Source of the DNA: Diospyros lotus
Taxonomy: Eukaryota; Streptophyta; Magnoliopsida; Ericales; Ebenaceae
Direction: 5' to 3'
DNA length: 64,000 bases
Assembly: GCF_014633365.1 (NCBI RefSeq)
Contig: NC_068352.1
Location: 16,773,310 to 16,837,309, forward strand
Shown here: positions 2,356 through 29,357 of the stretch, piece after piece
How the letters are laid out: the number at the start of each line of letters is the position of its first letter
Numbering within the stretch: the first letter of the stretch is position 1
The notes under the pieces: model-generated
Told to the model about the DNA's origin: nothing
Database searches by the model: none
The model's input: only the letters and a program-made list of their open reading frames with translations
Made by a program: the position numbers and the translations under genes

Positions 2356-3845
2356 ATGTATGTAAGACATGAAACAAAATTGACATATCCCCTAAGATGT
2401 CCCAGCCCAAGAGAATCCCACACAGCACTTAACCTTAACCGGGGAAAATGCAATCTCTCTAAAGGCAACACAACCCTATCGACACATTGGCATAACACAG
2501 TCCTAGCTTATGAGGGCAACATCAAACGCCTCTCTCTGACACAACGAAAAACCATCACTTCCGACATGGAATGGTCAACATCAATTCAGGAACCTGAGGA
2601 ATCACCCCATAGTCATGTCAAGGATTAAGTTTCCACTCAAAAGCATATCGGATCATGTCAACACAAACCCTGGCCACAAGATGATCAACATTATCCCCAG
2701 AAATTCATATCCACATCGGAAACAATGCTACCGCTCACAAAAACCTATGGTGGTGTCCTTTAACACCCCTCTAAGCTACCCCATCTCGGGGCAACCTAGA
2801 AGAGTGGGTGTCAAGGAACATAGAAGAATCAACACTTAGACACAAGCATGCATACATCTGACATTTATCCACCTCAATCCCAAAATAAATACTTCCAAGG
2901 GTTATAGGCACAACTTTTCTTTAAGTTACAGTACACACAAAATAAGTCTATACATCTATTAACACATTATTCCCAAGACCAGTTAGAACAAGAGGGGACC
3001 CACATGTGCACATGTCTACCCATTCTTCTTGCTTGACTCCCCACCATCCACTTCTTTACCTTTACCTGGAATGGAGGAGAGTACAACGTGAGCTACAAAG
3101 CTCAGCAAGTACGTATAAGAAATAAGAAGGAAGGGCATGACAGATAATAATATGGTATAGGTGTGGTGAATAAACATATAGACATGAATGATAGATTATA
3201 ACTCAGGAATCACACACACCCGTAATGATAATGCTGTGGATAAAACACATAAAAGTCGATCAGCATAAAACTGGTCAATGGTCCCACATAACAATATAAA
3301 ATGCATCATAATACATACCGGCCTGTAACTGATACCAATACCCAGAGAACTGTATAACATGTAGCCCATAAGTCATATCTAATATACTTAGCTATAGCCA
3401 TAAGTACATATATATAAATATATATAATCTCACCCATGGTCATCACCACTGGGCGCATCCCTTAATCGTCACTGTAGGAGCGTAACCCCAGTCAGGCTAA
3501 TGCTTACTGGTTTTGGGGGATATATCCCAGTGGTACATAACTGCAGCGCATATACTCATCTTTGTCCATGCCTCTTTCAATGCACATGCAACACATAGAA
3601 TGGCCACACACAAATTGCACATGTGATAGAAATAAGAGCTGATGCTCGTGCTCACTCATGAGATGCAATGCTAGAGATCAAGCCAAGATATGCTCATGAT
3701 GCACAATTACCACTCATTCAGGACATGCCATGATAGTGTGTGTATATGAGCAATTTAAAATTATTTTTTAGTTTATAAGCATGTTCAACACAGTTAACCA
3801 ATACACTAAAGTATGGATTTCTTGCTTAAGCTTTAAGATCATAGC
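2356..3845. other. Unclassified repeat-like DNA without a gene
   Basis: Only short frames are present and none resembles a known protein. The block around 3040-3120, read on the minus strand, looks like the middle of a Ty3-type LTR (a tract resembling GCTGAGCTTTGTAGCTCACG followed by a short purine-rich stretch), so this is probably a second, unassigned minus-strand LTR fragment. Bases 3841-3845 (ATAGC) are the left target duplication of the next LTR. Confidence 0.35.
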
Positions 3846-4590
3846 TGTAATACCCGGGAATGGTATGAGGATATAAATGGTATTTAATGAAGGGTACAAT
3901 TGGAATTTGCAAAAAAATGAGACTTTAGGGTACATTAACATAGTTTTGGATGACCGAATTAGTCAGAGGGAGTACCCCGGACCCTAGATAGCTAAAGAAA
4001 ATGGTATAGTATTGACAAGTGATTTGAATTATGATTTTTAGTGATAAAAGAAATTGGATCGGGAACAGTTTTCGGTACAACTATCGACCGGGCTGAGAAA
4101 ACTGAATCGATGTAAGAGACGTCCAGAAGGTCAACGGAGCACGTCAAGGACTATTATTTTATGTGTAGAACAACCCTTAAGTGATTTTGGGTTGAATCAA
4201 ATGGATTCAAGGTCAGATCGACCAGCCGGGCCTAAGTGCAATTTTTTAATTTTGCCCGAGCGAGGTCAAAACGATAATTTTTTGAAAATTTCAATGATCA
4301 AATGAAGAGTACAATTCTTGTTGGCTTTAGTGATGGTTTTAGAAAGATTAGGGGCTCAAAGGAAAGGGCAGAAATGCTATTGAAAGAAATTAAGGGGCTA
4401 AAGTGCAATTAAGCAAAATTTCAAAGTGTGAACACAAAAGAATTTCGGTCGCCGCACTGCCACCGCACGTGGAGGCCGTTTTCGGTGATGGGACGACCGA
4501 GGCTTGCTTGGGGAAGGTTGTATACGGCCGTAGGAGTCTTTGGGAGCAAGGATTAGCTGGTGATTGGCCGGATTTTGGCCGATTTTTGGG

Positions 4591-4598
4591 TATAAATA
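4591..4598 (+). promoter_or_regulatory. TATA box of Family 1 LTR
   Basis: TATAAATA lies within the solo LTR and is matched by TATAAATA at 20080-20087 in the Family 1 copy at 19204, at a comparable place in the LTR. That conservation supports it as the retroelement core promoter. Confidence 0.6.
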
Positions 4599-5560
4599 GA
4601 GGTTGAGGGTTCGAGTTTTTGAAGCACAAATCGACTGTGTTTTTGAATGTTTTTGAGAGAGTGATTAAGGAGCTTTTGATCCTTGCATGAATGAGAAGAT
4701 TTTGGGAGTGTTTTGAAGCATTTTGGTGTGAGTTTGAGGGTTATTCGAAGTTGGCCGGAAGAAGCAAGGCGGACCGCCTATCGCCGCCTGTAATAGGCCA
4801 TTTGATGGGTTTCCCGGTGGCCTTTCGGCCTAATTTTTGTGGGGTTGTGATCGATTCTTCAAGGGCTTTAAGGGGGTACCAGTTTCGGGGCCATCAGAGC
4901 AATCGTCGGTGACTTGATCTTTGGAGAAGACGGTGGCCCGTGTAGCCACGTGCCAGCCTTCACCCTCACACATGTGCCAAGCGCGTGAGGGCGCGTGAGC
5001 AAGGGCATTTTGGTAATTTAACTTCCAAAATTTTTATTTAATTATTTTAGAATTTTCTGTATTGAAATATTTAGGAAAGTGTTTGAGAAAATAATTATTT
5101 TGGAATTATCAAGGTGAAAATTGGGAGAAAATAGAGGAAATTATGGAAAAATTGAGAAAAATAGATTTTAATGCTTCCTTAATTAAATATGGTGTTTAGG
5201 AAGTGTTGTGGTTCGAGGTTGACTATAAGTTCGAGTACTTGTGTTTTGGCATGCAAAACGAGGTCATGCACAAGGATCGAGGCGATCCGAATACGTCAAG
5301 GTGAGTGTTCTACCTGAAAACTTGGTTTAAGTTGTGAGTAGTTTACCCTAAAACTTGGTATTTGTGTTACCTAAATGTGTTGTGAATTTCATGCAAAATG
5401 GTTTTGTGCATTGAAATGGTAACAGGTAACGGTTGGTTTTATGAGAGAGGTTTGTCGCTAAACGTTTTGAACGTGTGCATTGCATTCTATAAAATGTTGT
5501 TTATATGATGAATTGAATTGTGAAATATGGCATTGTCTTGCGTTTTTGTGTGTATGGAAT

Positions 5561-5926
5561 GTCAGCCTAAGATGTTGTCTGGATAGTGTAGTCATAATTC
5601 TCCAAGAGCGTGACGGAATAATAGGGGTATCTGATGCTGGTGTGCATGTCAGGATAGTCGCCTTGGTTTTCGTGCTAAATCATTTGGTCAGGGAAGTTGC
5701 ACTAGGACAATTAGGTGGTCCATACTGTGTTGTTCATGTGGGATGTTAGCCTAGGATGTTGTTTAGATAGTGTAGTCGTAATTCTCAAAAGGCGTGATGG
5801 AATAATAGGGGTATATGATGCTGGTGTGCATGTCAGGATGGCCGCCTTGGTTTTCGTGCCAGGCCGTTTGGCCAGGGAAGCTGCATTAGGATGACTAGGT
5901 GGTCCATGTGAAATTTTGGAGTTGGG
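5561..5926 (+). repeat. 183-bp tandem duplication inside LTR
   Basis: Two adjacent copies begin GTCAGCCTAAGATGTTG (5561) and GTTAGCCTAGGATGTTG (5744) and run in parallel through the shared GATGCTGGTGTGCATGTCAG block. The Family 1 copy at 24728 has one unit only (around 26325-26490), so the duplication arose in this copy or its sublineage. Confidence 0.75.
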
Positions 5927-6586
5927 ATTGTATGGTGGTTCCTGGATGCTTAAGGTGGGAACGTAATCTGGTGAGATGCGTTGGCAACCCCATTTAAGCT
6001 AGAATTGCGTCGTGTCGTCGAGTCGGTATGGTAGCATAGCTTTTAGAGAGATTGCTCTTTTCCCGTGGTAGGGTTAAGCGCTGGGAATTCTCTTGGGCTA
6101 GGGCTTACCGGGTGTATTGGTTTATTTCATGTCTCTCATTCATTCATGAAAAATGTGATTTTGAACTCTCACTTAGATGATTCATCATCTAATTTGGACT
6201 ATGTCCTTGGAATATTCAAATGTTCCAGGTGAAGGCAGCGGTGCGAAAGAAAAAGGAATTGCCGAGGGATGACGGCGATAGAGGATGTTTTATATTATAT
6301 CCTTTTAGATATGTTGTTTATTTTGAAAATGTCATGTAAACGTTGGTGCAACTTTATATATAAATAAAGTGGTTTTGGTTATGACCTGTCAAGGTTTCAA
6401 TCTAGCTTCCGAATTTGAGTTAGTGAACCTGTCTTAGTTTATTAATGGTTCATAGTTGATATACTAAGAAGGTGTAACGGGATCTTCGGGGAACAGTTTT
6501 ATGTTGGGTTTCTGTTGTTTGTTTGGAAAAAAATATCCCCGGAATCTTACGTTACGTAACGTCTTCCCAAAGAGTGGGGTGTTACA

Positions 6587-7865
6587 ATAGAGAGATATGT
6601 TAATCAGGGCATGGAAAAGAAACAATCCTCCCATGCAAGATTTCACTTAAAACTCCATTCCTTAGGAATAGTGGGGAGGAACAAACCCCACCTGGCTGGT
6701 ACAAACATCCTAAGAGATATAACCAACAAACCTCAACCAAACCCTCACCCTGTATATATTAAAATCCAAGAATAAAGAAATATCTAGGAAGAGAAAAGAG
6801 TATAAGAGAACTTGCCTTCTATTTCACCTATCAACTACTAGGAACTCCTTGATTGACAGAATCTAGCTTGCTGAGAGGAAAAGAATGAGGGTTTGAAGAA
6901 GAACAGAGAGCTTACGAGAGAGAGAGAGAGCTCGAGTTTATCTCCTCTGTCTTTTTGGATATTTTCCTTACAATTTCTTTCGTTTATATTTTCTCTATAC
7001 ATCATGTTTATCCATTTATTTATTTCCCCAAATTCCTTTATTATTTTTTGATCTGGAATCTTCTATATGTTTCTTGAATTAATGACGTTTCGGGTAATAT
7101 ATATATATTGAATCATTGAGAAAGACATTTGAATATAGCTTTAAGGTATTTGGATGATATATACATATATGGGTTGATGTGTGAAAGTCATTCGGATGAT
7201 TAAGGCATATTTGAATGGGTTTTGAGGCATTTGGCAGAAAAATTAAGAAAATGCAAAAGGCATTTGAATGCTACAGTTGGGCATTCGAATGAATTTGGAA
7301 TAATTGGATGAAAAGCTAAGGGAAAAAGGAGGCCATTCGAATGCTACAATGGCCTCATTCGGATGAATTTTGCAATTTTTGCATGGCTCATTCGAATGTA
7401 AAGGCACCTCATTCGAATGTGAAGGTTTAATCTGCTAAAAATGGATTTTGGACAGCTTTGACACCCTTTCAAATTTTGAACATAAATATGTCGTCCAAAC
7501 TCCGATTGAGGTGATTCAATATGATATGGAACGACAAGAGAAAGATCTATAAATTTCATGTTTTATGTTTTGAAAGATTCGAGATGAAACACAATCAAAA
7601 TTGGCTTATAATGAAGAAGTCGCACTTAGGAAAATAGGCCATTCAAATGGATCACCCCCCATTCGAATGGTACTACCTCCATTCGAATATCTATCCTCCC
7701 AAAGCCTCACACATTCAAATGCCTCTTCCAAAAACCTCATAACTCTTAACTACTCATCCTAAATCTTCCAAAACACTTACATACCCACTCACACTGCACC
7801 AAAACCCAATTTAACAAATAATTCTTCCCACAAGACATAAAAATAGTATGGAGTTATTCATTAAT
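6587..7865 (-). mobile_element. Putative copia-type LTR with CATTCGAATG array
   Basis: No coding potential is visible. Read on the minus strand it has promoter-like order: a palindrome array (7721 to 7189), a TATA-like run (7095-7110), then a CT-rich leader-like stretch including (CT)n near 6918-6932. That layout resembles the U3/TATA order of the copia LTRs elsewhere in this window. I could not fix LTR ends or a target duplication, so the element class is inference. Confidence 0.4.
7189..7721. repeat. Palindrome array CATTCGAATG
   Basis: Perfect CATTCGAATG occurs at 7282, 7334, 7389, 7410 and 7660. One-mismatch forms occur at 7189, 7261, 7356, 7640, 7680 and 7712, mostly CG changed to TG or CA. 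Copies come in pairs or triplets with start-to-start spacing of 20-22 bp (7261/7282, 7334/7356, 7389/7410, 7640/7660/7680). Spacer sequences differ, so this is not a plain tandem repeat. Confidence 0.85.
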
Positions 7866-9296
7866 ATCGGCCCCTATCTTCGGGTCTTTACATGTCCACT
7901 CGCAACCTCACTACTTAATCCGATCCGAGGTGGTGTCCACTTTCAGCCCTGCTAATTGTCGATTGCCAAGGTGGTGTCCTCTCTCAGCCCCCGTCACAAG
8001 TGGGTATTAATCCTTGGCATGCTTCCCTAGTGTTATCACTTAAGTGCCACATCATAAGTTGACATCTCACATCCCACATGAGCAACACAAAAACATGCCA
8101 ATGTCACATACCATGAATCGATGCATCATATATAACAACATTTCATGTACATAATTTATCACACAAAATTCAATGCATATGCATAACATTTTAGGATGAA
8201 CCTCCCATATGAAAACAACCATCATAGGTTAAACCGTTCACATGCAACAAAACCCTTTGCATGTAACCAAATCAAGTTTAGGTAGAATCAAAACCAAGTA
8301 TTTAGGGTAGAACCACTCACAATAAACCAAGTTTTTAAGTAAGAACACTTACTTTGAACGAAACTCAAAACACCTTGATTCTCGTGCCCAACCTCAATTT
8401 TCGTGCAAATCCTTAAGTCCTTTGACTAAACCACTCCCTCACACGTCTTCACATGTTGCCCAAGTGCTCTATGCATGTGATGTCTCACGTGTGCTTTATA
8501 TGCTTCTTTTTCTGTAGAAACAAAAGCTTTCTATCCACTAAGCTTGAATCACTCCCAGCACGAATTTATCACAACTTTGAATGATAAACCCTTGGCCTTG
8601 AACACGCTATTTATAATGCTAGAATCTTATAGTAATCATATCAAATCTTACCAAATCTTATCCAAATTTTATCCTTAAAGTCATCATGAGGCTTCATCCT
8701 TATCTTTAAAGTCATCATGTAACTTTATCCTTATCTTTAAAGTCATCATGACGCTTCATCATTATCTCTAAAGTCATCATGTACCTTTATCCTTATCTCT
8801 AAAGTCATCATAAAGTTTCATCCTTATCTCTAAAGTCATTATGTAGCTTTATCCTTATCTCTAAAGTCTTATCCATATCTCCAAGGTCATTATGAGGCTT
8901 TTCTTGAATCTCCCAAATGCTCATTGAAAAAAGGTTTCAAGAATTACACATTAGCCCAATTTTGTTGAGTAATTGCACTTAGACCCCTTGCGACTTTGTC
9001 CCCGGCTTTTTTTTTAAATTGCACTTATGCCCCTGGAGAAAGGATATATTACGCTAATGCGCTAAGGTTTTAAGTAAATTACACTTTTACCCAAACTTCA
9101 ATATTTACGATTTTGCCCCTGACTCAGAAACTGAACTTCTCCCTCAAGACCTTCATAATCCTTTGAAATGTCCTACTCCCTCAAATATTTACTTCCCAAG
9201 GTACTCCCTTCCATTGATTCAACAATTAATTAGCTAAATCTTTTAAACTGATTCCTAGTTACTTGAACTTAACACTATGAAATACGAGGTATTACA
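7866..9296 (-). mobile_element. Family 1-like LTR, truncated at its 3' end
   Basis: The minus strand begins TGTAATACC at 9296. The middle parallels the 5300-5400 region of the solo LTR (AAACTTGGT and GAGTGTTCTACC-like blocks, here around 8270-8345). A TATAAATAG box reads on the minus strand at 8607-8615. The final 400 or so bases expected of the family are missing on the left, where unrelated sequence starts near 7866. The outer flank GAGGG (9297-9301) finds no partner, in keeping with truncation. Confidence 0.55.
8677..8893 (+). repeat. 31-bp tandem repeat, about seven units
   Basis: AAAGTCATCATG-type units start at 8677, 8708, 8739, 8770, 8801, 8832 and 8863, exactly 31 bp apart. Odd units carry a TTCATC variant and even units a TTTATCC variant, so the true repeat is a 62-bp dimer amplified about three times. 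It lies just upstream of the LTR TATA box in the sense of the minus-strand element. Confidence 0.9.
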
Positions 9297-9346
9297 GAGG
9301 GTTAACTTTTGACCAATCATTTCTAGAGATATTTTGGGCACATGAT

Positions 9347-9356
9347 GTTGATACCA
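9347..9356 (-). other. Degenerate primer binding site of Family B
   Basis: The minus strand reads TGGTATCAAC, matching the first eight bases of the tRNA-Met primer site, two bases beyond the LTR end at 9359. About 60 bp of internal DNA follow leftwards before the Family 1 LTR. Confidence 0.5.
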
Positions 9357-10297
9357 AATGTAACACTATTGATGAGGAATGCAAATATTAGGTGTACCAA
9401 TGCAAGGGTTTAACTGATTTTCAAAAATATTTTTTGAAAACACATAAGAAGGCAGCGAAAACATACACCAAAATTACGTTGCAAGACTCGTTTCCAATGT
9501 CCATATGCAAACTGAAATTAAGCCATACCATAAAGGGTTTAGATGTTATACCTTTCAACACTTGAAGGCCGATGTAGAGGCTAAACTCCACCCAATGGAA
9601 GCAACTCGTGCTCCAAAAATAACTCTCAAAACTTCTTCGGTTAGACCGAATCGTCCCCCAAAACTACAAGGGGCCTATCTAGTCCATGCTCTTGTGAGAT
9701 GGTGAATCCTTCTATTCTCTCTTTGTGCTAGATAGAGAGAATAAGGGATATTAAAGACAGAAACAAACTTGGGTTAGAAATCAAAATGGGCTTCTCAAGC
9801 TTGATAGTCTCACTATCAAGAACAATGAATTACAATAACTATGAGAGAAGCAAATGAGCAATGGGAGTTAGGGTGTTTCGATTGGGTGAAGAAAGCAAGG
9901 ATGGCAGAGAGAAAATTGCACACCCACACGGCTTACCTCGTTCTTCATCTTTATATATCACATATATACATTCCCAAAATGAAAACCTTAGTCGATTTGC
10001 ATAAACGGACAAATTGACCATAGGAGAGAGAGAGAGAGAGGAGACCAAGGGGTGTTAAGGACACATGCCGTCGATCCTCTCATCCTCCCATCGTCCTATC
10101 ATGCCATGTCCCCCCCCCCCCAAATCCGTTGCAAATACAAAAAACAATCGAGGGATTCACGACCCTCTACAACAGGAATGGTCGATAGTTCGCAAGGAGC
10201 TATTGACTGCTTCACTTAAAACGATCGATAGTTTCCCAAGGCTGTCAATCGTTTTGGCCCTTCATCCAAAATTTCTAGAAATTACATCTAGGCCTGC

Positions 10298-10462
10298 TAT
10301 TAACTATTAACAGTACTTTCATTATCTCATAATGACACTAAGGCTCCCGTTAACTATTAACGGCATGCATGTCAACTCTTGACAATTGCTTCTTATTAAT
10401 TAATCATTTATACTCGATCCGTTAACTCTTAATGGTAAACGTTATTAACTTTTAATGATGAT
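10298..10462. repeat. Cluster of AA-CTC-TT palindromes in Family B LTR
   Basis: Several imperfect and perfect palindromes share a three-base centre CTA or CTC between AA and TT. CCGTTAACTATTAACGG (10347-10363) has perfect 7-bp arms, TGTCAACTCTTGACA (10370-10384) has perfect 6-bp arms, and CCGTTAACTCTTAATGG (10419-10435) is near perfect. The other B copy has equivalents at 23730-23895. Confidence 0.75.
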
Positions 10463-10897
10463 TTTATCCTTAATCGCTTAGTTAACCATCACACCTAGAT
10501 ATGCGTGTGACCATCTAGGTTCACTATTAAATACCAATCAGAAAATGCCAACCACCTTGATGTTGACCAAACACCTTTGGTCTTCAACGAGGATCTTTCC
10601 ATCTCCTTAAAGTTTCTCGTAAGACTCTGAGTGACAACTAATATTATGTCAGGGCGATCCTACCAATAATGAAGTCTTTGTTGGTCCTTTGACACACACA
10701 ATGGCCACTCAAGAGGGGGGTGAATTGAGTGATTAAAAACTTATTGAATCGATTCTTTCCTTTTTAAAACTCTTGAGATTTTCTTATACACAAAATACAC
10801 TTGTTATAAATATATATGTTGTTTGGAAATGATAGCAATATAAATACACAAACAAGCACAATATAAACACAAGATATATAGTGGTTCGGTGTATCCA

Positions 10898-11123
10898 TGT
10901 AACATCCCGCTCGAGCGATAGGAAGAACCGGAACAACTTACCCTAATGGGCCTACGCGAACTTCCCAGGGGGGTCACCCATCCCTGGATTACCCCAGGTC
11001 AAGCACGCTTAACTTGGGAGTTCTTTGCCAACATTCAGCCCAAAAGGTATCCAGCTGGTGTTGTTTCCTTTCTTACACTATCCTCGATATATTCTAACTT
11101 CTCTGGGCCCTTGGGGTATTACA
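10898..11123 (-). mobile_element. Cassandra TRIM solo LTR (5S rRNA-derived)
   Basis: The 226-bp unit has TGTAAYA...TTACA ends and a perfect 5-bp target duplication ATCCA (10893-10897 and 11124-11128). Its minus strand contains a degenerate 5S rRNA sequence (about 11055 to 10958), with the A-box-like AAGTTAAGCGTGCTTG (plus-strand 11000-11015) and the C-box-like GGATGGGTGACC (about 10972-10985) still readable. Cassandra elements are non-autonomous terminal-repeat retrotransposons in miniature whose LTRs carry 5S sequence with pol III promoter boxes. No primer site or second LTR is present, so this is a solo LTR. The frames that cross it are spurious. Confidence 0.9.
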
Positions 11124-11594
11124 ATCCAACACCTACGCCACTCTCTCAAGGTCAAACCGACACTTGAGGTTCCACTAAAACCACCACTGGGTTTCCACAC
11201 AAGAGCACTTAGCAAACTTGTACACCCCGAGGTTTCCCCTTAGCTCACCCCGGAAACTAATACAACACAATAATACAAATAAATCAATCCTATGTTTAAC
11301 ATACTTGGACTACAATGGATATCAATACAAGAACAATATACAAGGCAAAATGAAATGATACAAGTTACCAATAAGAAGAAAACTTCTTCTTTGCCTTGAG
11401 GCTCCAATGGATAGATCTTTGAAGCTCCTTAGGCCTTGGATTGCTTTGATTGAGTGCTTGAGAGCTTGGGTGTGCTTTAGGAAGATAGGAAATAGTAGAG
11501 CATTAGCCTCCTCAAGATTTCTCCTCTTAATATTTATATTGGGGCTCCCAAAACGACCTGCAACGGCTCAAAAAATCCGATTGTTGGAGTCTGG

Positions 11595-11811
11595 CAGTCG
11601 ATTGTTCTAACTGACAGTCGACTCCGTGACACCCATAGTCGACTCTCGCTCAGCCCACAATCGACTTTCTCACAGACAGTCTACTCTCATTGGCCTACAG
11701 TCGACTCGACAGTCGACTGGCCAAAACTCACTCTCGGCTACCTCGACTCTGCATAAACAATGCTCGGTTATATCGACTGATACACATCCACAGTCGACTA
11801 CCAGTCAACTA
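11595..11811. repeat. Palindrome array CAGTCGACTG
   Basis: Copies or one- to two-mismatch copies of CAGTCGACTG start at 11595, 11615, 11636, 11658, 11677, 11698, 11710, 11791 and 11802. The first six are 19-22 bp apart. Only 11710-11719 is the perfect decamer, but the core octamer AGTCGACT is intact at five sites. In the minus-strand LTR the array lies about 60 bp upstream of the TATA box, in U3. Confidence 0.8.
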
Positions 11812-13338
11812 TCCCTCACCGGGAGTTGACTCTCAATCCAGATTTCAGAAAAATAAGATTTGCTTTGATAATACAATACATAGCATAAATTCATTACAAG
11901 ATATTTACATTTATTTAGTTTAAGTAAATGTCTAAATTTTCTTTTATTTATATTTTACCTTCCATTTACTTTAATACATAAATGTAAATAACAAAGTACC
12001 TCCCATTTGGATTCAATAAAAATATCTAAAAAATCAAAATCCAAATAGATAAGAAAGTAGATTTTGGGTTTTAGAACAAATTCTGGATTTGACGATTTTA
12101 GCACTTCCAAAATACATACTTTCCATTACTTGAAAAATTCACTAAAAATCATTTTCACAATAATGAATAATAGCTATGAAAATACCGGGAGATAGTTTTC
12201 CAAAAGGAAAACGTTTTCTTATATGTTCCCTTATAGTGTGTTAATATTCTACTTAGAATCAAATTGCATTTCTTGGTTCGTTTTGATACACAAAATACTA
12301 TAATACTTAACACATATAAAAAATCCATTAGGGGTTTTAAATATACCAAAAATAGTTTTATTAAAATTATGTTTTGTTAAACATCAAAATACACAATAGG
12401 TTGATTGGAGCAACTTGGTTCAATAGTCTTACTTCAAAAAAGAACCTATTTGGGCTTTCAATTCTAGTATATTATAATCTTTTCATCTGTTATCATCCTG
12501 ATTGAGTAAGAATCGTGGACTGATCAAACTCACTAACTCGATGACTATGCCAAAATCAGTGTGGTGAGATGAGATGACACATCAGAATTGCTTCTGACAT
12601 TGGAACACTTTCCAATCAAGTGTACCCTAGTCAAGGGTTTCTATAATGAAGACCACCACTGATCTCATAGGATGTTCACATTACGCCGGAGGTCGACGGA
12701 TCCCATCAGGAATCACTTGCCTCCATATACTACTACACAGGGACCACACAATGCATCTCCCACCTAGTAACTGGATGGTTCTTAACAATGGAAAATCCCT
12801 GGCGCTAACACACAAGACAACTGTGTTGCCTCCGGTCTAAGGACCAGTAACACAATTGAAACCTATGATAGACCATAGATCCTCTTAGTCATGTGATCTA
12901 TGACATGTGTCACATTTAGTAAGTGTTCCACTAACACCTATCCACGTGATACTATATCATTTCCATGAATTATGGCATGTGGCTCACCATCCTTTATCAT
13001 TAACATCTCATACTAATCAAATGTAGTATCTCACGTGTCAGTCTGTAATTGACTAATCATAGTCCCCTTCTGAGAAGTCTAAGGACTGTGAATTAACCTT
13101 AAGATATCTTTATTATAAAGGTCAATTGTCACATATTCTTAACGCTTAAGAATAAGACATTCGATAGGAAATCTAAGGACTCATTCATATTAATGATTGG
13201 AGAACTATGAATGAAGATATGACTTCAAAATATGAAAACATATTTTGTTATATTTATTTTCAAGAATTGCATCATTAGTCCCATAATTATAAATGATAGA
13301 TGCCATCTAAATCTAGTATTAGGGCACCAACACTAACA

Positions 13339-14390
13339 ACTATATAGTGTGTGACTTTTTAGATTCATTACCTGTTAGCAATCAGATAACACTAAAACCC
13401 TTTTTACTATTGGTCAACCCCTTAACCCATCATCGAAACTTCTCCAAATCCTGACGATGTTCTAAGAGTTTCTGAATAGCGTCTAGCAGCAGTTTAGGAC
13501 AATATAGGTGATAGTGAAGTCTCACTTCAAGTGAACCTATTATAGTTGACGATTACCATGTGTTATAATCCTTCCATCACCTAATGTCCCGACTGAGCAA
13601 GAACTATGGAGTGACAAACTCACAAACTCAGTAGCTATGTGTCAGACCTCATTAATGTGATTAGATGACACATTATGAAACACCTTTTTTGACTTTTAAT
13701 CTGCGTTGGCCAAGAACTGTCCCGCCATATTAATATTAGATCACATAGGACGTTCACCCCATCAAATACCGACAAGGGAGACGAATACTATTCCCAATAC
13801 ATGTCTTTATATACTAGCAATACAAAACACATATGAGCATTCTCATCTCTTGATTGGATGGTTCGGCTCATTAACAAATCTTGCACTCCAATACACAAAA
13901 CAACCACGCTGGTTCAAGTCTAAGGATTAACATATCATCACAACCTAATGACTTAACCATTATCCACCATGCCATATGGTCAATCCTTGGCATCATATTC
14001 GATTGATCGTTCCCCAACAACCACCCATAGGTTTATTAGCGACATCTCATGTCATATGGCGCGTGACACACCATCCTCTCATATGTATCCCCATATTAAA
14101 TGAGATACTAACCCCTGTGCTAGTCCATACTCAATTAATCGGAGCTAGGAATAATTTAAGAGGTGCTATTACCAGATAATCCTATCATAGCGTCTCAACA
14201 CCTTGAGAATAAGATTCTCACACAAAAGATCTAGGGATTCATTCATATAATTGATTGAAGAAAATATAAATGAAAGAAACCTTATCTTTTATAGATTTAT
14301 ACAAAAATATAATTAATGCATTAAAACAATTTTGCTAGATGTCATTCAAATCTAGCATCAAGGCACACAACATTAAGAAATCTACTAGTC
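13339..14390. repeat. Divergent Family B-like LTR segment
   Basis: The segment parallels 10617-10677 plus 12426-13338: the TCTGAATAGCGTC...GAAGTCT block, a GTTCAC-containing block near 13750, the closing block of GATGTCATTCAAATCTAGCA and a CAACATTAAG end. It looks like a diverged B LTR piece next to the better-kept one, from an old tandem or nested arrangement. No gene is seen. Confidence 0.5.
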
Positions 14391-14666
14391 CTTAAGAGCG
14401 AAAGACATATAATTTTTTTTTTTTTTTTTGCCACACTAAGAATCATTCTTCAAAAACATATAGAAAAGAAAAAAAAAAAAAGGGGTAGAAAATTTGATAG
14501 TGTTTTAGTCATATTAAAAATTTTAAGATTTGGCTATGAACAATTTTTCTCCTCACATATGAAAACTAGAACATTCTATCTTTTCTAAAATGGTATTTTA
14601 GTAATTAATGTCCAATTAGACCTTATTTAAGATTTCAACACCAAACATTAGATGGTATTACTATAA
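14391..14666. other. AT-rich spacer with poly-T tract
   Basis: An 18-19 base poly-T run lies near 14411-14429 and a poly-A-rich run near 14470-14480. No gene is visible. TAA at 14664-14666 is the left target duplication of the following MITE. Confidence 0.5.
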
Positions 14667-15415
14667 GGGGGCATTTGGTACAGGAGAAATTTTAAGATTT
14701 TAGGGAATATTAAGTTGAGAATCTATATTCCCATATTTGGTACAACTTTTTTATAAAAAGAATCTTGAAAAATAGGATTCCTGGGAATAATTTTTAAGTA
14801 ACTTTCTCATAAAAAGATTTCTATGGGGGGTTGGGAATCCAAGTTTCCCATGGACTTGGGAATGTTTTTAACAAAGAAAAAGACTAAAACGCCTCTTACC
14901 CTTTTATAACCGAATACAAACATATTATATGTATGTAATATATTTATATATTATATATTAAATATAAACATATATATTATAATATATTTATATTATTTAT
15001 TATAAATATTATATATATTAAAGTAGATATTCATACAAATATATATTATGTATATATAGTATATATATGTACACACGCATATATATACATAATGTATAAA
15101 AAAAATACATTTTTTGTCTTCCTAAAGATGTTATGGGTCCTAATATTTTATATAGTTGAAGGAATTTATCATTTTTAAACAAAAAATCAAATAAGGGTAA
15201 TTTTGGAAAAAGGACATGAATTTCCAAGAATGTTGCATTTAAACTAAACATAAAAATGTAAAATTTCCAAGAAATAATACTCAACATTTCTGAGAATGTT
15301 TGAATCTAACAAAACATAAAATTATATAAATCCTAGGAAAGAAAGATTTCCAAGAGTATTCCCAGCAATTATGAATTATAAGAATTTAAAAACTTCTCCC
15401 GTACCAAACTCCCCA
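14667..15415. mobile_element. PIF/Harbinger-like (Tourist-type) MITE
   Basis: Terminal inverted repeats of about 30 bp pair GGGGCATTTGGTACAGGAGA (from 14668) with the reverse complement of the right end, GGGGAGTTTGGTACGGGAGA (ending 15414). The flanks are TAA on both sides (14664-14666, 15416-15418), the 3-bp duplication typical of PIF/Harbinger. At 749 bp and without a coding frame it is non-autonomous. The centre (about 14925-15085) is an AT microsatellite that could extrude as a cruciform. Confidence 0.8.
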
Positions 15416-16287
15416 TAAATAAGTTTATACCTCATTTACTCTTGAGATACCAAACATGAGGTGAAATTATTTAATCTTATCATTATTTTATCCCATTTTA
15501 AGTTAGTCCCATCACTATTTAGTTTAGATACCAAAAGGCTTTTTAGTAGCAAAGGTAATGACTAAGGGGTTATTTGATATATGAATTAAAGTAATGATAG
15601 AACTAAACAATACTATTTTATGTTTGGTAAACAAAGTACCAATTGAGGTTATAACTATGTCATGTTTGGTATCCAAAAATATGAATAAGGTATTATTTGG
15701 TACTAAATAGAAAATGACCAAACTGCCATTTACTTTATTATTTATATAATTATATTATATATAATTATATTGTTAGATTGCATTTTTTTTCTTTTTGTCA
15801 AATTTTATTATATGAGGCATAATTACATTTTAGGAAAAATATTTTCTAGGACATCTTGGCATGTTTTTTGTCAGGACGAGGTGTGATATTATTTAAATAT
15901 CATCCATTATGGGTTTGTTTATGTGAATGTGTATATGTATATATATTGTGGAGGGCATTTAATTAATTTTGCACTCTATGTTACCAAAAAACATATCGAG
16001 ACATCCAAAAAACAACATCCCTTTATATTTTCTATGATTATATATAATATAATTACATTAAAATAAAAATAAGGAAAAAGGCTCCAATAATGCAATAGAG
16101 GTGTCAGAACCCTTTCATTAGGTTTTGATCAATTGACTGTTTGAGAAAGAGAGGAAATTGAACAAGGAGATTGAAGAAGAATCAACTACAGTTGTAGAAA
16201 GAGGGAAAAAATAGAGAAGAAGTAGTTGTAGAAGAAGGAAATAGAAGATGGAGTATGCAAATCTTGATCTAGATGATGTTGAGCAAT
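15416..16287. other. AT-rich DNA with decayed MITE-like pieces
   Basis: Recurring TTTGGTATC / GATACCAAA words (about 15440-15680) suggest older inverted-repeat elements, one of which was hit by the MITE at 14667. I could not fix their ends. The last 150 bp (16140-16287) is purine-rich. No gene is seen. Confidence 0.4.
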
Positions 16288-16669
16288 TGTTGAATAATAG
16301 TTTTTTGCTTGTTAGCTTTTGTGTTAATCCAATCTAAGTTGTCCTAGTTTTTAGGAATATTTTAACAGAACATAGTTATGTTACCTAGACTTTTAGGGGA
16401 GTAATTTTTTTGCACGTTTTGCACCTATTTTTATGCTATTTTCTATTATGTACAAGTCTATATAAAGACTTCAGATTTCTGAATAAAAGTAAACAAAGAT
16501 AACTACTTTCCCTATTAATCTAGCCTCTTAAATACTCGAGTAGCATTCCCTTATTAATCGAGTAACCTTTTTCATTACTTAAGTAACCTTCTTCATTTCT
16601 CAAGTAATCTTCTTCATTACTCGAGTAACCTTTTTCATCACTCGAGCAATCTAGCTTTTTCTTTTAACA
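16288..16669 (+). mobile_element. Copia 5' LTR (candidate borders)
   Basis: The candidate LTR starts TGTTGAATAATAG and ends TTTTAACA one base before a primer site, 382 bp. TATATAAAG near 16458-16466 is a good TATA box. The right border is well supported by the primer site and gag start; the left one rests only on TG and the TGTT/AACA inverted ends, and could lie further upstream. Confidence 0.6.
16533..16648. repeat. Palindrome array TACTCGAGTA, 21-bp period
   Basis: Six units start at 16533, 16555, 16576, 16597, 16618 and 16639: spacings 22, 21, 21, 21, 21. Units 1 and 5 are perfect TACTCGAGTA. Unit 3 is TACTTAAGTA, still a perfect palindrome. The spacers are alike (ACCTTTTTCAT type), so this array is also a true 21-bp tandem repeat. 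It sits between the TATA box and the LTR end. Confidence 0.9.
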
Positions 16670-16670
16670 G

Positions 16671-16682
16671 TGGTATTAGAGC
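16671..16682 (+). other. Copia primer binding site
   Basis: TGGTATTAGAGC differs at one base from the tRNA-Met primer consensus TGGTATCAGAGC. It lies one base after the LTR and 19 bases before the gag start. Confidence 0.75.
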
Positions 16683-16701
16683 TCAGTTATAGAAGAAAGT
16701 A

Positions 16702-16904
16702 ATGAACTCTAATACATTTGTGCAACTTGTAATCCCTCGTTTTAATGGTCACTATGATTATTGGAGCATGCTGATGGAGAATTTCCTAAGGTTCAAGAAG
16801 TATTAGCATGTGGTTGAATCTAGAGTAACAAAACCACAGGAGGGAGCGGTGCTCTCAGAAATGCTGAAAACATATTGGGAGGCATTAAAGTTGAAGGATG
16901 TTAA
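16702..16904 (+). pseudogene. Copia gag N-terminal fragment
   Basis: From the ATG at 16702 the frame gives MNSNTFVQLVIPRFNGHYDY and WSMLMENFLR, the N-terminal pattern of plant copia gag polyproteins (IPRF-G-YD-W motif). A stop codon interrupts at about 16804 (LRFKKY then stop). The frame then resumes as HVVESRVTKPQEG, which is also gag-like. At about 16905 the sequence changes abruptly to Family A LTR, so the rest of gag-pol is absent. It is non-functional. Confidence 0.75.
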
Positions 16905-19145
16905 ATGGGACACTTGGCAAAATCTTGTGAAGCAAGATGTGAAATTTAGAAGAAATTTAAAAAGCAAAAAGAAAAGTGTCTTTCAAACATTAAATGAGAG
17001 ACATCATTATGTTGATTAAAGAAATTCTTTATTAAATTAAAAATTAGTCTTGCATTAATGGTGGAAAATGGGGTATTAAAGAAAATGCAAACTAAAAGGA
17101 TTTATGTCTTTCAAGGAGATGTTGTGAAAATTGTCACCTTAAATTAATTCTTGAAAAAATGGCTATTTTGGCTAAAAGACAAAAGGGATCTAAGGGATAA
17201 GATTCAATCTTGGATAAAAATAAGATTCAATGGCCATGAATTAATTCTTGGAAATGGCATGGATTTCCAAATAATAAGGAATTTGTTTAATTAAAAAGAA
17301 TTGATGGTAGGGATTGTCCTTGGCATTAAAAATCAAGGGCTAAGATTTATTTCTTCCTTAAGGCATGGAATGTGTTTCTATTCTATGGTGGAGATTAGTT
17401 CTAGTCTTGATCTATGGATAGGATTAAAACCTTTTAAAGCACAAGGATTGTGTTTCCATTGGAGGGTGGGGATTTATTCGTCACTCAAGCCAAACCAATG
17501 GCTTAGATTTAATCTTGAAATGGGCATGGATTCATGAGAAGAAAAGAAGTATAAATTGGAAGAAGAAAGAAGAACAAGCTTTTCATTAGCCAAGAAGAAG
17601 ATTAGGAGAAGGAAGAAGAAAGGCAAGTAAGAGGTAAGCTTTAGCCTTCTTTCCCTCTCATGTAGTAGTCTTTATTTTTCTTATGATCTAAGGTTATATT
17701 TCTTTTCTTCTAAGGTAGCTTGAATCAAAGAGAGTTTTGAAAGGTGAGGGCTTGAAGTTTTAAGGAGAAAAGAGGTAAGGGATGACCCCATGTGGTGGTG
17801 GTTTTGCTTGCATTCGTAAGTGTTTATTTATGAGTTGCATGTAGTGGTCACATTTGCATGATATGTGTTCTAGTGTACCTATGGCCATATGGAGGACTAG
17901 TGTGGGGGAAGGGTTGGTTGATGCCTTAACCTATGGAGGTTATGAGGGCATGGAAGATTACCCATTATTGCATTGCATTTTGCATTACATGCTTTCTCAT
18001 GTTACATTTGCTTATGCATTGCATCCTTGCTGAGCAATGGCTCATAAGGTCCTTTTTGACCTCTTTGTAAGTGGGGAATCTTTAAAAGGAAAGAGTATTT
18101 TGGAGGGTTAAAGGATATTGAGCAAGGAAAGCTTATGTGAAGGAGTATGTATTTTGCTTGTGTGGTGTAAGTTAATGTATTTTGGTTGATGTGTATGAAT
18201 GCTTGATGTGGGAGAATGAGGAAAAACTTTGATGTTTTTGGAGGTATTTGGGGTATATTTAAATTCTGGAAAAAATGGCTGGAAAAATAAATAAATAAAT
18301 AAAAAGGTTAGGATGCTGCTGCTGCTGGCAGGCGCGAGGTCCGTGCGCACACAGGCGACCCGCACGCATGGCTGGCCAAATGCACGTGGTAAGCGCCATG
18401 TGGGCGCGCGATTGGTGTGTTGTCGCCTCTTTACTGCTGTTTTATTTTTTTTATTTTATTTTTGAAATTTCTGGAATAAAGGCATATTTTATAAATAAAT
18501 AAATGCAGATTTGGTCCCCAAAAATATTTATTAAATTAATGTAAATTTTGAGGCATTTTTGAAAAAATTCCTATCTTTTTGGAAAAGAATTTAGGAAAAT
18601 TGGTGGAAAAAGGGTTATGATTTTAAATTTCAAAAATTTATTTATTAAATGATGGAAATTGGGTGTATTTTGAAAAAAAAAAAAAGAAAAAAAGAGAAAA
18701 TAAATGGAGATTTGGCTAAGGAAAAATTGATTAAATTTTTCAAGAAGAGATTAACCCAAATATTTTTCTAAGGAAATTTGGAAATAAGAAAATGGGTTAA
18801 TAATTGGGCCAATTATATTTTTCTAATAATTAAGACCTTGAGCCATAGTGAGGTAAAGCGTGTTGGGGTTCGCTTTTTTGTCGAGTTCTGGGTAAGTCAT
18901 CCTTGACTTATCAGTATGGGCAAGAAAATAGTGATGCTTATCAAGGGTTTGGTTTTAATTCTACGAGATCTTTTGATATTCCTTTTCCTGAATCCTTGAG
19001 TGAAGCGAAGGGAGGGGCGAAACCTAGTTCCCACCTAGGGCGTTTCTCATTGAAACATAGCCAGTCTTTTTATTATTGCCTTAGCGAGTGAACAGTTGGG
19101 TTGATTATTCAGTAGTAACACTCGTGGTGGGAGCGGGGCGTTACA
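16905..19145 (+). mobile_element. Family A LTR, 5'-truncated
   Basis: The sequence from GGGACACTTGGCAAAATC onward parallels the Family A LTR at about 53810-55834, including the CACCTAGGGCGTTT block (about 19035-19053), and ends GGAGCGGGGCGTTACA at 19145. Roughly the first 850 bp of the family LTR are missing and replaced by the copia gag fragment. No primer site follows, so it is a truncated solo LTR or remnant. The frames inside are not conserved. Confidence 0.65.
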
Positions 19146-19203
19146 AAATGTAGCCAAAAAACTAAAACGCTTCTCTTCTTTTCCCCTTTATACCAATACC
19201 CAA
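19146..19203 (-). repeat. Small remnant of a Family B LTR
   Basis: These 58 bases resemble 9930-9985 in the better-kept B LTR (TTCTTC...CTTTATA...CCCAAA). Together with 23391 onward they form the target of the Family 1 LTR. The left part of this B copy has been lost at the junction with the Family A LTR. Confidence 0.45.
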
Positions 19204-20562
19204 TGTAATATCCCAAATTTTCTAAAGAGGTCAAGAGTAATTTTAACTTGGTCTATAGGTGAAATTATCAAAAGATTAGGGGTTTAAGTATAATTTCTTA
19301 CAGTTATAAGTACTGAATCGACTGCAAGGAATGTCTTGAAGTGTAAATGTCTAAAGAAAATGAAATAGTTTCAAAGAGCGTCCCGAGATAAGATTTATGG
19401 TATTAAAAGAAATCGGAATCGAGACATGTTTCGGTACAGCTAAAATGTAGCTTCGAATTAGACCGAAAAATTAAATTGTTGTAAGAGGCTTCTGAAAAGG
19501 AAACGAAACCTTCACAAAAGTTAAATATTATGCAAAGAACAATCATTCAGTGGTTTCAGGATGAAATAAAATGGTTTTTCGACAAAAATGAAGATTTAGG
19601 CATAAGTGTAATTTTTAAAATTTCCCAAGGGAGGTCGAAATGACATTTTTTCTGTAACTTCAGGGGTCAAATGAGAAGTTTAGAACGTAAGGGTCTCAAC
19701 AGAAATGTTGGAAAACCCAGGGACCTTATGGAAAGACCAAAATACAATTCAAAAAATGAGAAGGGTGATAGTGTAATTTTCAAAAGAGCTTGGAAGCCAT
19801 GGTTGACCAAGCTCCATCCCATCACCAAATTCCGCCATGGGAGGCTCGAGAAAGTGGCAAGGGACCTTGGGGCAAGTCCCTATGACCGATCTTGGCCGAC
19901 AATTAGCCTTAGCATGGTCGAAAATAGCCAAACTTTTTGGCCGAAAGTGACCAAAAAGTTGGCCGCTTAAATCGAGGGTTTGAAAGCTCTTCGATGGATT
20001 TTGGACTCATTTGGGTCAAGGGAGTAAGTTAGTGACCTTGGATGAAGCGAGAGTTGTCGTTTAAGGGTTCGAATTTGACTATAAATAGAAGAAGTTGGCC
20101 GAGGGTTTTGAAAAACTTCGAGCTTCAAATCGACCTCGTATTTGAATGAATTGAGGGATTAAAATATGGGGCTTTTTCTCTAGAGGGTGAGAGGATCATT
20201 TCTAGAAAAAAAAAAAAATGGAGGGTTTTCATGTTCGTTTGGTGGGGTTTTGAGGGATAGCCGAAAAATTAGGCGAGTGGACGGGCCGAGGCTTTGAGCC
20301 TCCGGTTGAGGCATCTCCAGTGCTTCTTTTGGGTATCCAACCACACCATCCTAATCAACTAAGGGAGAGGAATCGGCCGGTGTAGGAGTTGTGCATCACT
20401 GGTGTACCGGTGCCGGAGAAAACGATCGACGCGTGAAGCTCACGCACAGCCATTCACCTTAGCGCGTGCAGGCGCGTTGTTGTATCATCTTTTTTGATAT
20501 ATGAGAAAATGTGCTTAATGAAAAATCAACCTTAGAATGAAAATTCTTTATGAAAATCTCAT

Positions 20563-21270
20563 ATTTCGAAACATGCATGATTAGTGTTTTGGTGCGAAAG
20601 CTCAAATGTTTGAAAAATCGAAAATTCATGTGTCATGTTTCGAAACCATCTTTCTATGTTTCAAAACATAGTTTTGTTATATTTGAAATAAATTCAATAT
20701 TTATGCATCATGTTTCAAAACTAAGTTTTCATGTTTCGAAACATCAGTTTTGTCATGTTTCTATACATGTTTTGAAATGTATATTGATAAGGTTTCAAGT
20801 TTTGCTAAGTTTATATGTTGTATTTCGAAACCTATTTCAAATCTATGCATATGTTTAAAAACTTATATAATATGTTTCGAAACCTCTGTCATCTCTGACA
20901 GTAGTGTATTTAAATCTTTGTTTAACATGTTTCTGAAGTATGTTTTGAAACCTTCATATCATGTTTCGAAACATCTGACTATGTCAGAAGAATATTTGAA
21001 AATATGTCATGCTTTTGCACTTTATTTCAAAAGCTATTTGAAAAGATAATTTTTGAAATAATCTCCATACCCTGATGTTTCAATTTTAGATATGTTATAA
21101 GTGGAGAATAAAACCAAATCATTTTGTTTTTAAAAGATGTCATCCACTCATTCTGTCTCTTGGTGCATATCCAGTTGTAAAGGCTGTATGTTTCGAAACA
21201 TAGGATATATGTTTCGAAATATCTGTGTAAAAATGTGTTATTTCGAAACCTAAAATATGTGTTTCGAAAC
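20563..21270. repeat. Palindrome array GTTTCGAAAC, upstream cluster
   Basis: Perfect copies lie at 20637, 20733, 20874, 20963, 21190 and 21261, with many one-mismatch forms. They are organised as pairs exactly 21 bp apart: 20637/20658, 20712/20733, 20853/20874, 20942/20963, 21190/21211, 21240/21261. In four pairs one partner is decayed (TTTCAAAAC, TTTTGAAAC or TTTAAAAAC). Linkers between pairs vary in length and sequence. Confidence 0.9.
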
Positions 21271-21914
21271 CTACTTTATTATCTTGTCTCTAACGGTTAT
21301 AATTAGCCAAAAAGCTATCTCTTTGATATATATATTAGTTTTTGAAGACAAGAAGCCACCTCTTACAAGCATACACAAGTTTACACATCTACAAGAGATT
21401 TTTGCCACAAGCATAAGCAAACGAAGCTCTTTTAACAAGCTCTCAAAGAAGATCCTTTCAATCATTCATTGGTGTGCATTGTGGTTTGAAAATGAGAAGT
21501 AAACTGAAACCAAAGCTCTCATCCTTTCAAGCTCTCTTCACTTCATTCCAATAGGTTTGTAATAACTATTTGGTAAGGTGTTTAATTACATTCAAATTGT
21601 TGGTTGTAAAAGATAAGTGTTATTTATCTTGTTGTAAGATTTGAGGTAACCCCGTAAAAACTCATTGTGTAAGGTTTTAGGGTGAACCGTGATAAAACCC
21701 TTTGTGTCGTTGATTGCTAGTGAAAGTAATTGTGGTTTGCAAATCCTTCAAGTGGGTAAGCTTGAAGGTAGTGGAGTAGGCGAGTGCCGAACCATTATAA
21801 ATCTCGTGTGTACTTGATTTCTCATTCTTACTTGTTGTTATCCTTTTTTATGCTTTGAAAAAAATCATTTTTGAAAACCTAAAGGAGTTTCAATATTTGC
21901 AATCAGAGAGTAAG

Positions 21915-22048
21915 GTTTCGAAACATACTATAGTAGGTTTCGAAACATACCTGACAGTAAGCTTGATTTCGAAACATATTCATCTATATTTCGAAACATA
22001 CTTAATAGAAAGATTAGTTTCGAAACATACTCCCACAGGTTTCGAAAC
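21915..22048. repeat. Palindrome array GTTTCGAAAC, downstream cluster
   Basis: Three pairs with 22-bp spacing: 21915/21937, 21966/21988, 22017/22039. The pairs themselves repeat every 51 bp. The first and third pairs are perfect GTTTCGAAAC, the second ATTTCGAAAC. The cluster ends about 100 bp before the LTR end. Confidence 0.9.
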
Positions 22049-22151
22049 ATAGTGTCCTGCAAGTAAAAGTTTTTAAGTTATTGAAAATTTACCCAAATCC
22101 CAATTCACCCCCCCTCGTAGGATATATTTGCCATTATATAGAACTAACAAT

Positions 22152-22163
22152 TGGTATCAGAAC
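22152..22163 (+). other. Copia primer binding site
   Basis: TGGTATCAGAAC, one mismatch from the initiator tRNA-Met primer site, two bases after the LTR end. Confidence 0.8.
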
Positions 22164-22215
22164 GCAAGGTCTCTGAGTGTTTTGTAGGTTTAACCACCGA
22201 AGAGCAAAGATCCAA

Positions 22216-23067
22216 ATGGCATTCAACACCGACTTCAAGTTGGAAGGACAAAACACGTCAAGGCCACTGTATTTCGAAGGTTCAAACTACACCTACTGGA
22301 AAACAAGAATGAGGTATTTCTTGTTGCAAAATACTGAACTATATACATGTATATCTAGTACGGTTACACTTCCGAAACCTCCTACGAAAACTTGGAATGA
22401 ACAACAAAAACAAACTAATGAGATAAATGCTAGAGTTGTCAATATATTACAATGTGCATTAAGTCCAACTGAGTTTAATAGAATAATTTCATGTACTATG
22501 GCAAAAGAAATTTGGGATCACTTAGAAGTAACACATGAAGGAACTAAGAAAGTGAAAAGCACTAAGATTGCAATCCTTACTAGTGAGTATCAAAATTTCA
22601 TAATGAATGCTAGTGAATCCATTAAGGAGATGTTCACAAGGTTTAATGACATTGTAACGAACTTGCAAGCTTTAGGAAAAACAATAACAATTGAAGAAAA
22701 GGTTCATAAGACCTTAGGAAGTTTACCATCTAGTTGGGAACCTAAAGTCATGGCCATAGAAGAAGCTAGAGACACATATACACTTATAATGGATGATTTA
22801 TTATGCTCACTATTGACTCATGAGATTAAGTTAAATATAAAAGAATCAAATGAGCTCAAAATGAAATCCTTAGCATTTAAGGCCAAAGAAGAAGATGAAA
22901 GTGAAACAAGTGATGAAGATAAAGAACTTACTCTACTCACAAAACGTTTTAACAAGTTTATGAGAAAAGGAAAATTTCCCAAGAAAAAACCATATGAAAA
23001 CAAGAAATTTTCTAAGAATACTTCTTATGAATTAGATGGAGATTGTAGCAGAAACAATGATGAATGA
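22216..23067 (+). pseudogene. Copia gag, open but truncated before the zinc knuckle
   Basis: The ATG at 22216 starts MAFNTDFKLEGQNTSRPLYF; the YFEGSNYTYWKTRMRYFL stretch is the classic copia gag start (DUF4219/UBN2-type), followed by the central gag domain (AKEIWDHLEVTHEGTKKVK; FTRFNDIVTNLQALGK; LGSLPSSWEPKV) and an acidic-basic tail (EEDESETSDEDKELTLL, then KKKPYENKKFSK). The frame is uninterrupted for about 284 codons. The CCHC zinc knuckle that should follow is missing, and the last dozen or so codons and the stop at 23065-23067 probably come from the Family 1 LTR. Protease, integrase, RT and the 3' LTR are absent. An in-frame GTG upstream at 22177 is not needed as start. Confidence 0.85.
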
Positions 23068-29321: not shown

Positions 29322-29357
29322 TTCCACCCTCCTTAAAGAATTTCGTCCTCGAAATTC
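29322..29357 (-). other. Polypurine tract and adjacent inverted repeat
   Basis: On the minus strand AAGGAGGGTGGAA abuts the 3' LTR. Just before it lies GAATTTCGAGGACGAAATTC (29338-29357), an inverted repeat with 8-bp arms and a 4-base centre. The same pair occurs at 56979-57015 and 63811-63847. Confidence 0.85.

Follow-up and report, generated by a model that had tools for sequence, protein, structure and literature searches.

Arrays of TCGA-centred palindromes in long terminal repeats of Diospyros lotus: candidate binding-site clusters with family-specific flanks

Results

Four palindrome arrays in one stretch of DNA

The DNA analysed here, which we call the window, is a 64,000-nt stretch of Diospyros lotus contig NC_068352.1, and our subject is a set of four arrays within it (A1 to A4), each made of copies of its own 10-bp palindrome with TCGA at the centre and each associated with a long terminal repeat (LTR) of a retrotransposon. 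Array coordinates are window positions; numbers beginning with L denote stretches of the host genome outside the window, and families of sites are named by the three-base flank outside the TCGA core (CAT, TAG, TAC, CAG, GTT and so on).

7189-7721, unstranded: array A1, CATTCGAATG, 11 copies at up to one mismatch
11595-11811, unstranded: array A2, CAGTCGACTG, 9 copies at up to two mismatches
16533-16648, unstranded: array A3, TACTCGAGTA, 6 copies at up to two mismatches, a plain 21-22-bp tandem repeat
20563-21270, unstranded: array A4, upstream part, GTTTCGAAAC, 13 copies at up to one mismatch, many in 21-bp pairs
21915-22048, unstranded: array A4, downstream part, 6 copies, arranged as 22-bp pairs that recur every 51 bp

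The initial annotation had claimed arrays at these four places, and they are indeed there: at one mismatch, no decamer palindrome out of all 1,024 reached the copy number of the array in any of 200 dinucleotide shuffles, and this holds for all four. The counts at that threshold are 11 copies of CATTCGAATG in A1 (shuffle maximum 5), 5 of CAGTCGACTG in A2 (maximum 2), 3 of TACTCGAGTA in A3 (maximum 2, the least clear of the four) and, for GTTTCGAAAC in A4, 13 versus 5 in the upstream part and 6 versus 2 in the downstream part. At two mismatches they become 12 versus 9 for A1, 9 versus 4 for A2, 6 versus 4 for A3 and 6 versus 5 for downstream A4, with upstream A4 tying with its largest shuffle (16 versus 16). 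Exact copies are few (five in A1, one in A2, two in A3, ten in A4), the other sites being one or two changes away, often with the central CG replaced by TG or CA. Near-copies, given per array and not per complete element, thus number 11 in A1 and 19 in A4 at one mismatch or fewer, and 9 in A2 and 6 in A3 at two or fewer. A plain tandem repeat was rejected as an account of all the arrays, save A3 and downstream A4.

Genome-wide abundance and a shared TCGA core

The decamers are abundant throughout the 630-Mb Diospyros lotus genome, fifteen of whose 16 longest contigs (C1-C16) measure 33-55 Mb, the other being 7.4 Mb long. Counted as exact decamers, with the reversed, uncomplemented word as control, CATTCGAATG has the most copies of the four (17,791 versus 235), followed by GTTTCGAAAC (7,211 versus 1,314), TACTCGAGTA (2,715 versus 950) and CAGTCGACTG (722 versus 98). 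When only the core was specified, TCGA triplets at 21-bp spacing occurred 3,188 times genome-wide (245 for the AGCT control) and those at 16-bp spacing 21 times (203 for AGCT). Although the outer bases were unselected in this search, the central decamer was perfectly palindromic in 42 of the 50 21-bp matches listed, all of which lie within approximately the first 10 Mb of C1, as compared to one of 21 in the full 16-bp list. The 50 listed decamers fall into 10 clusters by likeness, the first member being perfect in four of these, with one asymmetric pair in four and two in the remaining two. Around the core, the flanks met among the matches listed are CAT, CAG, TAG, TAC, TAA, GAG and GTT together with a GGTCGACC-type, and the second flank base is A in all flanks seen except GTT and the GG type. 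A common TCGA centre with family-specific outer bases, as originally proposed from the window alone, is therefore supported genome-wide by the triplet counts and the palindromy of the listed decamers. At C1:3765782-3765910 there is a further type of array, with GGTCGACC-centred sites at 52- and 21-bp steps, which is close to the Vitis RM (repeated motif) box CGGTCGACCG.

Clusters were also sought without selecting the word, in sixteen 10-kb stretches taken at 4.0 Mb on each of C1-C16 (160 kb) plus the window, requiring at least 5 sites in 600 bp, the best palindrome per step and palindromes containing two or more G or C. This returned CATTCGAATG twice in L009, TACTCGAGTA in L023 and the window arrays A1, A2 and A4, A3 being under the five-site threshold, as well as TATAGCTATA and GTATATATAC clusters, both of which are AT-rich; a AAATCGATTT cluster was rejected as a palindrome array, as it is tandem AAATCCATTT. 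In a single shuffled version of this sequence there were no clusters. Of the four stretches taken from the top of a random list, one contained a cluster, of CATTCGAATG (L037), and the other three contained none. Tetramer autocorrelation over 200 kb, which is too thin a sample, gave 18 TCGA pairs at 19-23 bp versus 9 at 14-18 and 5 at 24-28, and 102 in phase versus 75 out of phase, with an in-phase excess in some other tetramers too (CCGG 45 versus 17, GATC 107 versus 71). The window palindromes were not found in viral contigs with the two patterns searched; the maize Sirevirus motif was found there at three loci.

Spacing and helical phase

Sites are often set whole helical turns apart, most clearly in the CAT and TAG families. 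Phase was measured as the mean cosine of site spacings at 10.5 bp, and for seven pooled arrays (A1, L008, A2, L025, A3 and both parts of A4; 67 spacings of up to 130 bp) it is 0.75, whereas none of 2,000 random placements exceeded 0.30; when 18-24-bp steps are removed, it is still 0.55 (n=27). Among the first 100 CATTCGAATG matches listed, 81 neighbour spacings fall below 120 bp and have a best period of 10.4-10.5 bp (R 0.80), but these are not independent events because copies of one family share ancestry. Taken by family and without 21-bp steps, the values are 0.73 (n=46, listed matches) and 0.76 (A1 window plus L008, n=12) for CAT, 0.92 (L025, n=4) and 0.49 (L028, n=8) for TAG, and 0.74 (L030, n=8) and 0.67 (listed matches, n=8) for TAC; CAG, at 0.45 (n=3), has too few other steps for significance. 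The by-family run took in neither L009, L023, L026, L029, L032 nor L037, for which there are all-step values: 0.82 and 0.83 in L009, 0.68 in L026 and 0.73 in L032, with the other three taken up below.

The 20-23-bp spacing that had been described at the outset is the commonest step, but only that, as many others correspond to three, five or seven turns of 10.5 bp and the period extends to 73-95 bp. Genome-wide, the odd-turn layout of TCGA at 52 + 21 bp occurs 3,224 times on one strand and 3,272 on the other (45 and 44 for AGCT). Odd-turn steps in the CAT and TAG families show that these arrays are not decayed simple 21-bp tandem repeats.

Gypsy-type LTRs with CATTCGAATG arrays

2759-7892, minus strand: solo gypsy-type LTR around A1, ends TGTAAAGACCC...GTGTTAAA, 5-bp target duplication GGACA, split by a nested element
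3846-6586, unstranded: nested element in the A1 LTR, ends TGTAATACCC...GGGTGTTACA, flanks ATAGC/ATAGA

Judged by its ends, its target duplication, and the block and decamer that it shares with L008, the A1 LTR is gypsy-type, and its assignment to copia was rejected. L008 is a 2.6-kb LTR with ends TGTAACGACC...GTGTTACA, flanked by GGAAC and carrying 17 CATTCGAATG sites; it has a 48-bp block in common with the A1 LTR at 92%, and nothing longer can be aligned. A further placement comes from L027 (C1:1.12-1.13 Mb), which lies between two CATTCGAATG arrays and encodes RVT_1 and then Integrase_H2C2, which is the gypsy order, with an rve match below the cut-off. At its end, this internal region has a purine-rich tract and then TGTAATGACCC; the latter aligns to the start of the L008 LTR (75% over 159 bp), and this alignment together with the domain order places CATTCGAATG arrays in gypsy LTRs. 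The array from the random sample, L037 (2914-3299), also of CATTCGAATG, lies in a stretch that matches neither the A1 LTR nor that of L008 at E 1e-5, and hence this decamer seems not to be confined to a single LTR family. The nested element that splits the A1 LTR is 2.7 kb long with gypsy-type ends, and is missing from the corresponding point of L009.

Copia and Sirevirus-type LTRs

10679-12426, minus strand: Sirevirus-type LTR around A2, TATA at 11538, polyC integrase signal at 10720, 3' end ...CCAACA at 10679
10898-11123, minus strand: 226-bp insert in the A2 LTR, TGTAATACCCC...GGGATGTTACA, target duplication TGGAT
16459: TATA box, with array A3 downstream of it
16670-16682, plus strand: primer binding site after the A3 LTR, GTGGTATTAGAGC, two mismatches to the pattern used
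21327: TATA-like stretch, preceded by the upstream part of A4 and followed by the downstream part
22108-22114, plus strand: polyC tract CCCCCCC near the A4 LTR 3' end, Sirevirus-type integrase signal
22150-22163, plus strand: Sirevirus-type junction of A4, ATTGG and then TATCAGAAC, LTR end ACA at 22147-22149
22180-23064, plus strand: copia-type gag after the A4 LTR, PF14223, E 1.1e-28

Two of the four regions had initially been taken as proven copia LTRs and a third as a solo copia LTR with a target duplication; this stands for A4, with its copia gag and its junction, but A1 is gypsy-type, A2 is without a convincing duplication and the A3 gag match is below the Pfam cut-off. The A4 junction has one mismatch to the Sirevirus sequence CA/ATTGG/TATCAGAGC, and its gag has no homologues in viral contigs. 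Between 20637 and 21270 the 21-bp pairs of GTT sites are kept and the register between pairs is lost, unlike in CAT and TAG. The A2 LTR has a polyC integrase signal (minus strand, 10720) near its 3' end at about 10679, and its 5' coordinate, 12426, is merely the end of the alignment to L026. A convincing target duplication was looked for and none was found, TTGTG being rejected since its second copy falls within the terminal signal region. The insert in this LTR contains a stretch that is 5S-rRNA-like by eye, for which Rfam gave no match at the gathering threshold, and we take it to resemble a Cassandra-type terminal-repeat retrotransposon in miniature. At A3 there is no polyC tract before 16670, and the junction AACA/GTGG/TATTAGAGC has a four-base spacer that departs from the Sirevirus CA/ATTGG (or AGTGG) form; the element looks like a member of another copia group. 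L025 has a TATA box, a Sirevirus-type polyC signal and the target duplication TACAG, and this LTR sits inserted in a tandem satellite whose periods are close to 320 and 640 bp and which occupies L025 from 1 to about 1658 and from about 2826 to 4301.

Elsewhere in the window, 8669-8868 holds 6.5 copies of a 31-bp tandem repeat (TTATCTCTAAAGTCATCATG...) that alternate, such that a 62-bp unit scores higher. Direct repeats relate 26732-29020 to 35266-37548, and 29327-34439 to 56985-62244, in several pieces with 99% and 80-92% identity; these are probably further LTR elements.

In the five stretches with a readable TATA just past the array, the last site is 57-185 bp upstream: 57 bp in A2 and in upstream A4, about 88 in L025, 120 in L028 and 185 in L029.

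Discussion

A fixed core, variable but symmetric flanks and a helical register are together what would be expected of rows of symmetric DNA-binding proteins, and we consider it probable that the arrays serve such proteins as binding-site clusters in the regulatory DNA of LTRs, although binding is inferred from the arrangement of the sites. In the model we favour, symmetric and probably dimeric proteins would bind each palindrome, recognizing a TCGA core common to the families seen, with the three flanking bases on each side setting family specificity. The whole-turn layout in several families would then bring neighbouring proteins onto the same DNA face, where they may cooperate, and the bound rows would most likely drive or modulate LTR transcription. 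That the sites are laid out for binding on one face, as was first suggested for all four arrays, agrees with the 10.5-bp phase, odd turns included, of the CAT, TAG and TAC families, but does not extend to GTT beyond its 21-22-bp pairs.

Several observations weigh against this explanation. Without 21-bp steps the GTT family has no phase (-0.06, n=16; 0.10 in A4, n=8), and even when these steps are counted, phase is weaker in L023 (0.48), L029 (0.57) and L037 (0.60); moreover, neither the spacings inside one array nor those in different copies are independent of one another. The initial annotation held that palindromes are kept while the DNA between them drifts, and for this the support is weak, the excess conservation of sites over spacers being small or absent: site versus spacer identity is 0.89 versus 0.79 and 0.88 versus 0.78 in the first part of the alignment between A1 and L009, but 0.85 versus 0.84 and 0.52 versus 0.80 in the second part, where L009 has two extra sites, and it is 0.83 versus 0.81 and 0.90 versus 0.85 between A2 and L026. 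Position is not uniform either: the TATA box precedes A3 and the second part of A4, and probably also the gypsy arrays, for example that of L008, provided that position 560 marks its TATA. Finally, RNA folding z-scores are -5.2 for A2, -4.2 for A1, -8.1 for L025 and -9.7 for A4 (the last from 20 shuffles only).

These z-scores would be accommodated if the repeated palindromes served to fold LTR transcripts into hairpins, leading to small RNAs or packaging, with the phase of the DNA incidental; in maize, small RNAs are found in excess over palindrome-rich Sirevirus LTR regions, according to the accessible text of two reports (PMC10760457, PMC5311732). Yet the z-scores do not discriminate, because good folding is expected wherever a single palindrome is repeated, and hairpins explain neither a 10.5-bp period out to 73-95 bp nor a fixed TCGA core, which leads us to regard a role in RNA structure as unlikely. 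Slightly less likely again, in our view, is that the arrays are a functionless by-product of mutation, in which slippage or template switching during reverse transcription multiplies a palindrome-containing unit. The plain 21-bp tandem repeat of A3 and the 51-bp repeat of downstream A4 are what such a process would leave, as are the 20- and 40-bp indels between copies, which match the repeat unit in size. Indels between copies of 20 and 10 bp (A2 versus L026) and 40 bp (A1 versus L009) are also near whole turns, which counts for the binding-site model, and smaller ones are present between A2 and L026. A by-product would not, however, be expected to have unlike spacers, abundant odd-turn steps, symmetric outer bases and a TCGA core that recurs in both gypsy and copia LTRs. 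Host silencing, in which sequence-specific host factors would recognize the family motifs and recruit methylation, fits the central CpG of each perfect site and the frequent TG/CA variants among decayed copies, as methylated CpG would give, but it is improbable, as the element would seem to gain nothing from keeping or multiplying such sites, and their phase and copy number suggest a benefit to the element.

If the arrays are binding-site clusters, it is tempting to speculate further that a diversifying recognition code, consisting of TCGA core, family flanks and register, is common to the copia and gypsy LTRs of a single plant and would be read by related dimeric proteins, either host paralogues or proteins of the elements, whose specificities diverge with the families. 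This we offer tentatively, and with rather more doubt than conviction. Should one protein family read the arrays, unrelated retrotransposons in one genome would have arrived by convergence at a common regulatory grammar, each family with an address of its own. The words are so abundant (17,791 copies of one decamer) that a single binding screen might find the reader protein, and the old question of what activates plant LTRs and how their families stay distinct would thereby become directly testable.

Family-specific palindromic boxes in Sirevirus LTRs are already known, one of the elements that carry them being Tnd-1 from tobacco. It was thus too strong to state, as the initial annotation did, that there is no described system like this one: the RM boxes published in 2010 are family-specific palindromes with a CpG core, repeated many times (at eight copies or more per element) within the LTR upstream of a TATA box, and were described in 13 Sireviruses, two of the boxes being TCGA-centred, Vitis CGGTCGACCG and Tnd-1 ACAATCGATTGT (Bousios et al., 2010, PMC2829016). 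Like them, the Diospyros arrays are multi-copy, family-specific LTR palindromes, the A2 and A4 LTRs bear Sirevirus-type signals, and CAATCGATTG, within the Tnd-1 box, obeys the rule of an A at the second flank base. There are also differences, as far as the available text of that report goes. A CGG-CCG core is given there for all RM boxes but that of Tnd-1 and is present in none of CATTCGAATG, CAGTCGACTG, TACTCGAGTA and GTTTCGAAAC; RM boxes are called Sirevirus-specific, whereas the commonest decamer here sits in gypsy LTRs; and 'helical', 'helix' and 'spacing' appear in that text in reference titles only (PMC2829016). The maize Sirevirus palindromes, CACCGGACNNNGTCCGGTG, likewise form clusters in the cis-region of copia LTRs and have been proposed to be regulatory, but they are longer, have another core and, in the portions available, are treated as secondary structure and as the small-RNA hotspots mentioned above (PMC10760457, PMC5311732).

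Our literature search, in which subscription papers were thinly covered, returned no recognisable report of palindrome arrays in gypsy LTRs, a shared TCGA core or helical phasing. A more distant parallel is provided by VANDAL elements, which are DNA transposons. The target motifs of their VANC proteins, YAGTATTAY and AGTTGTCC/AGTTGTAC, are, like the decamers here, short, multiplied in non-coding transposon DNA and diverging between related families, and they are read by a sequence-specific protein, as the decamers would be; they differ in that the reader is encoded by the element, and the accessible text mentions no helical phase and does not contain the word palindrome (Hosaka et al., 2017, PMC5735166). 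Set against these systems, what seems new in Diospyros is the occurrence of palindrome arrays in gypsy LTRs, a TCGA core common to the families of one genome, and their helical phasing.

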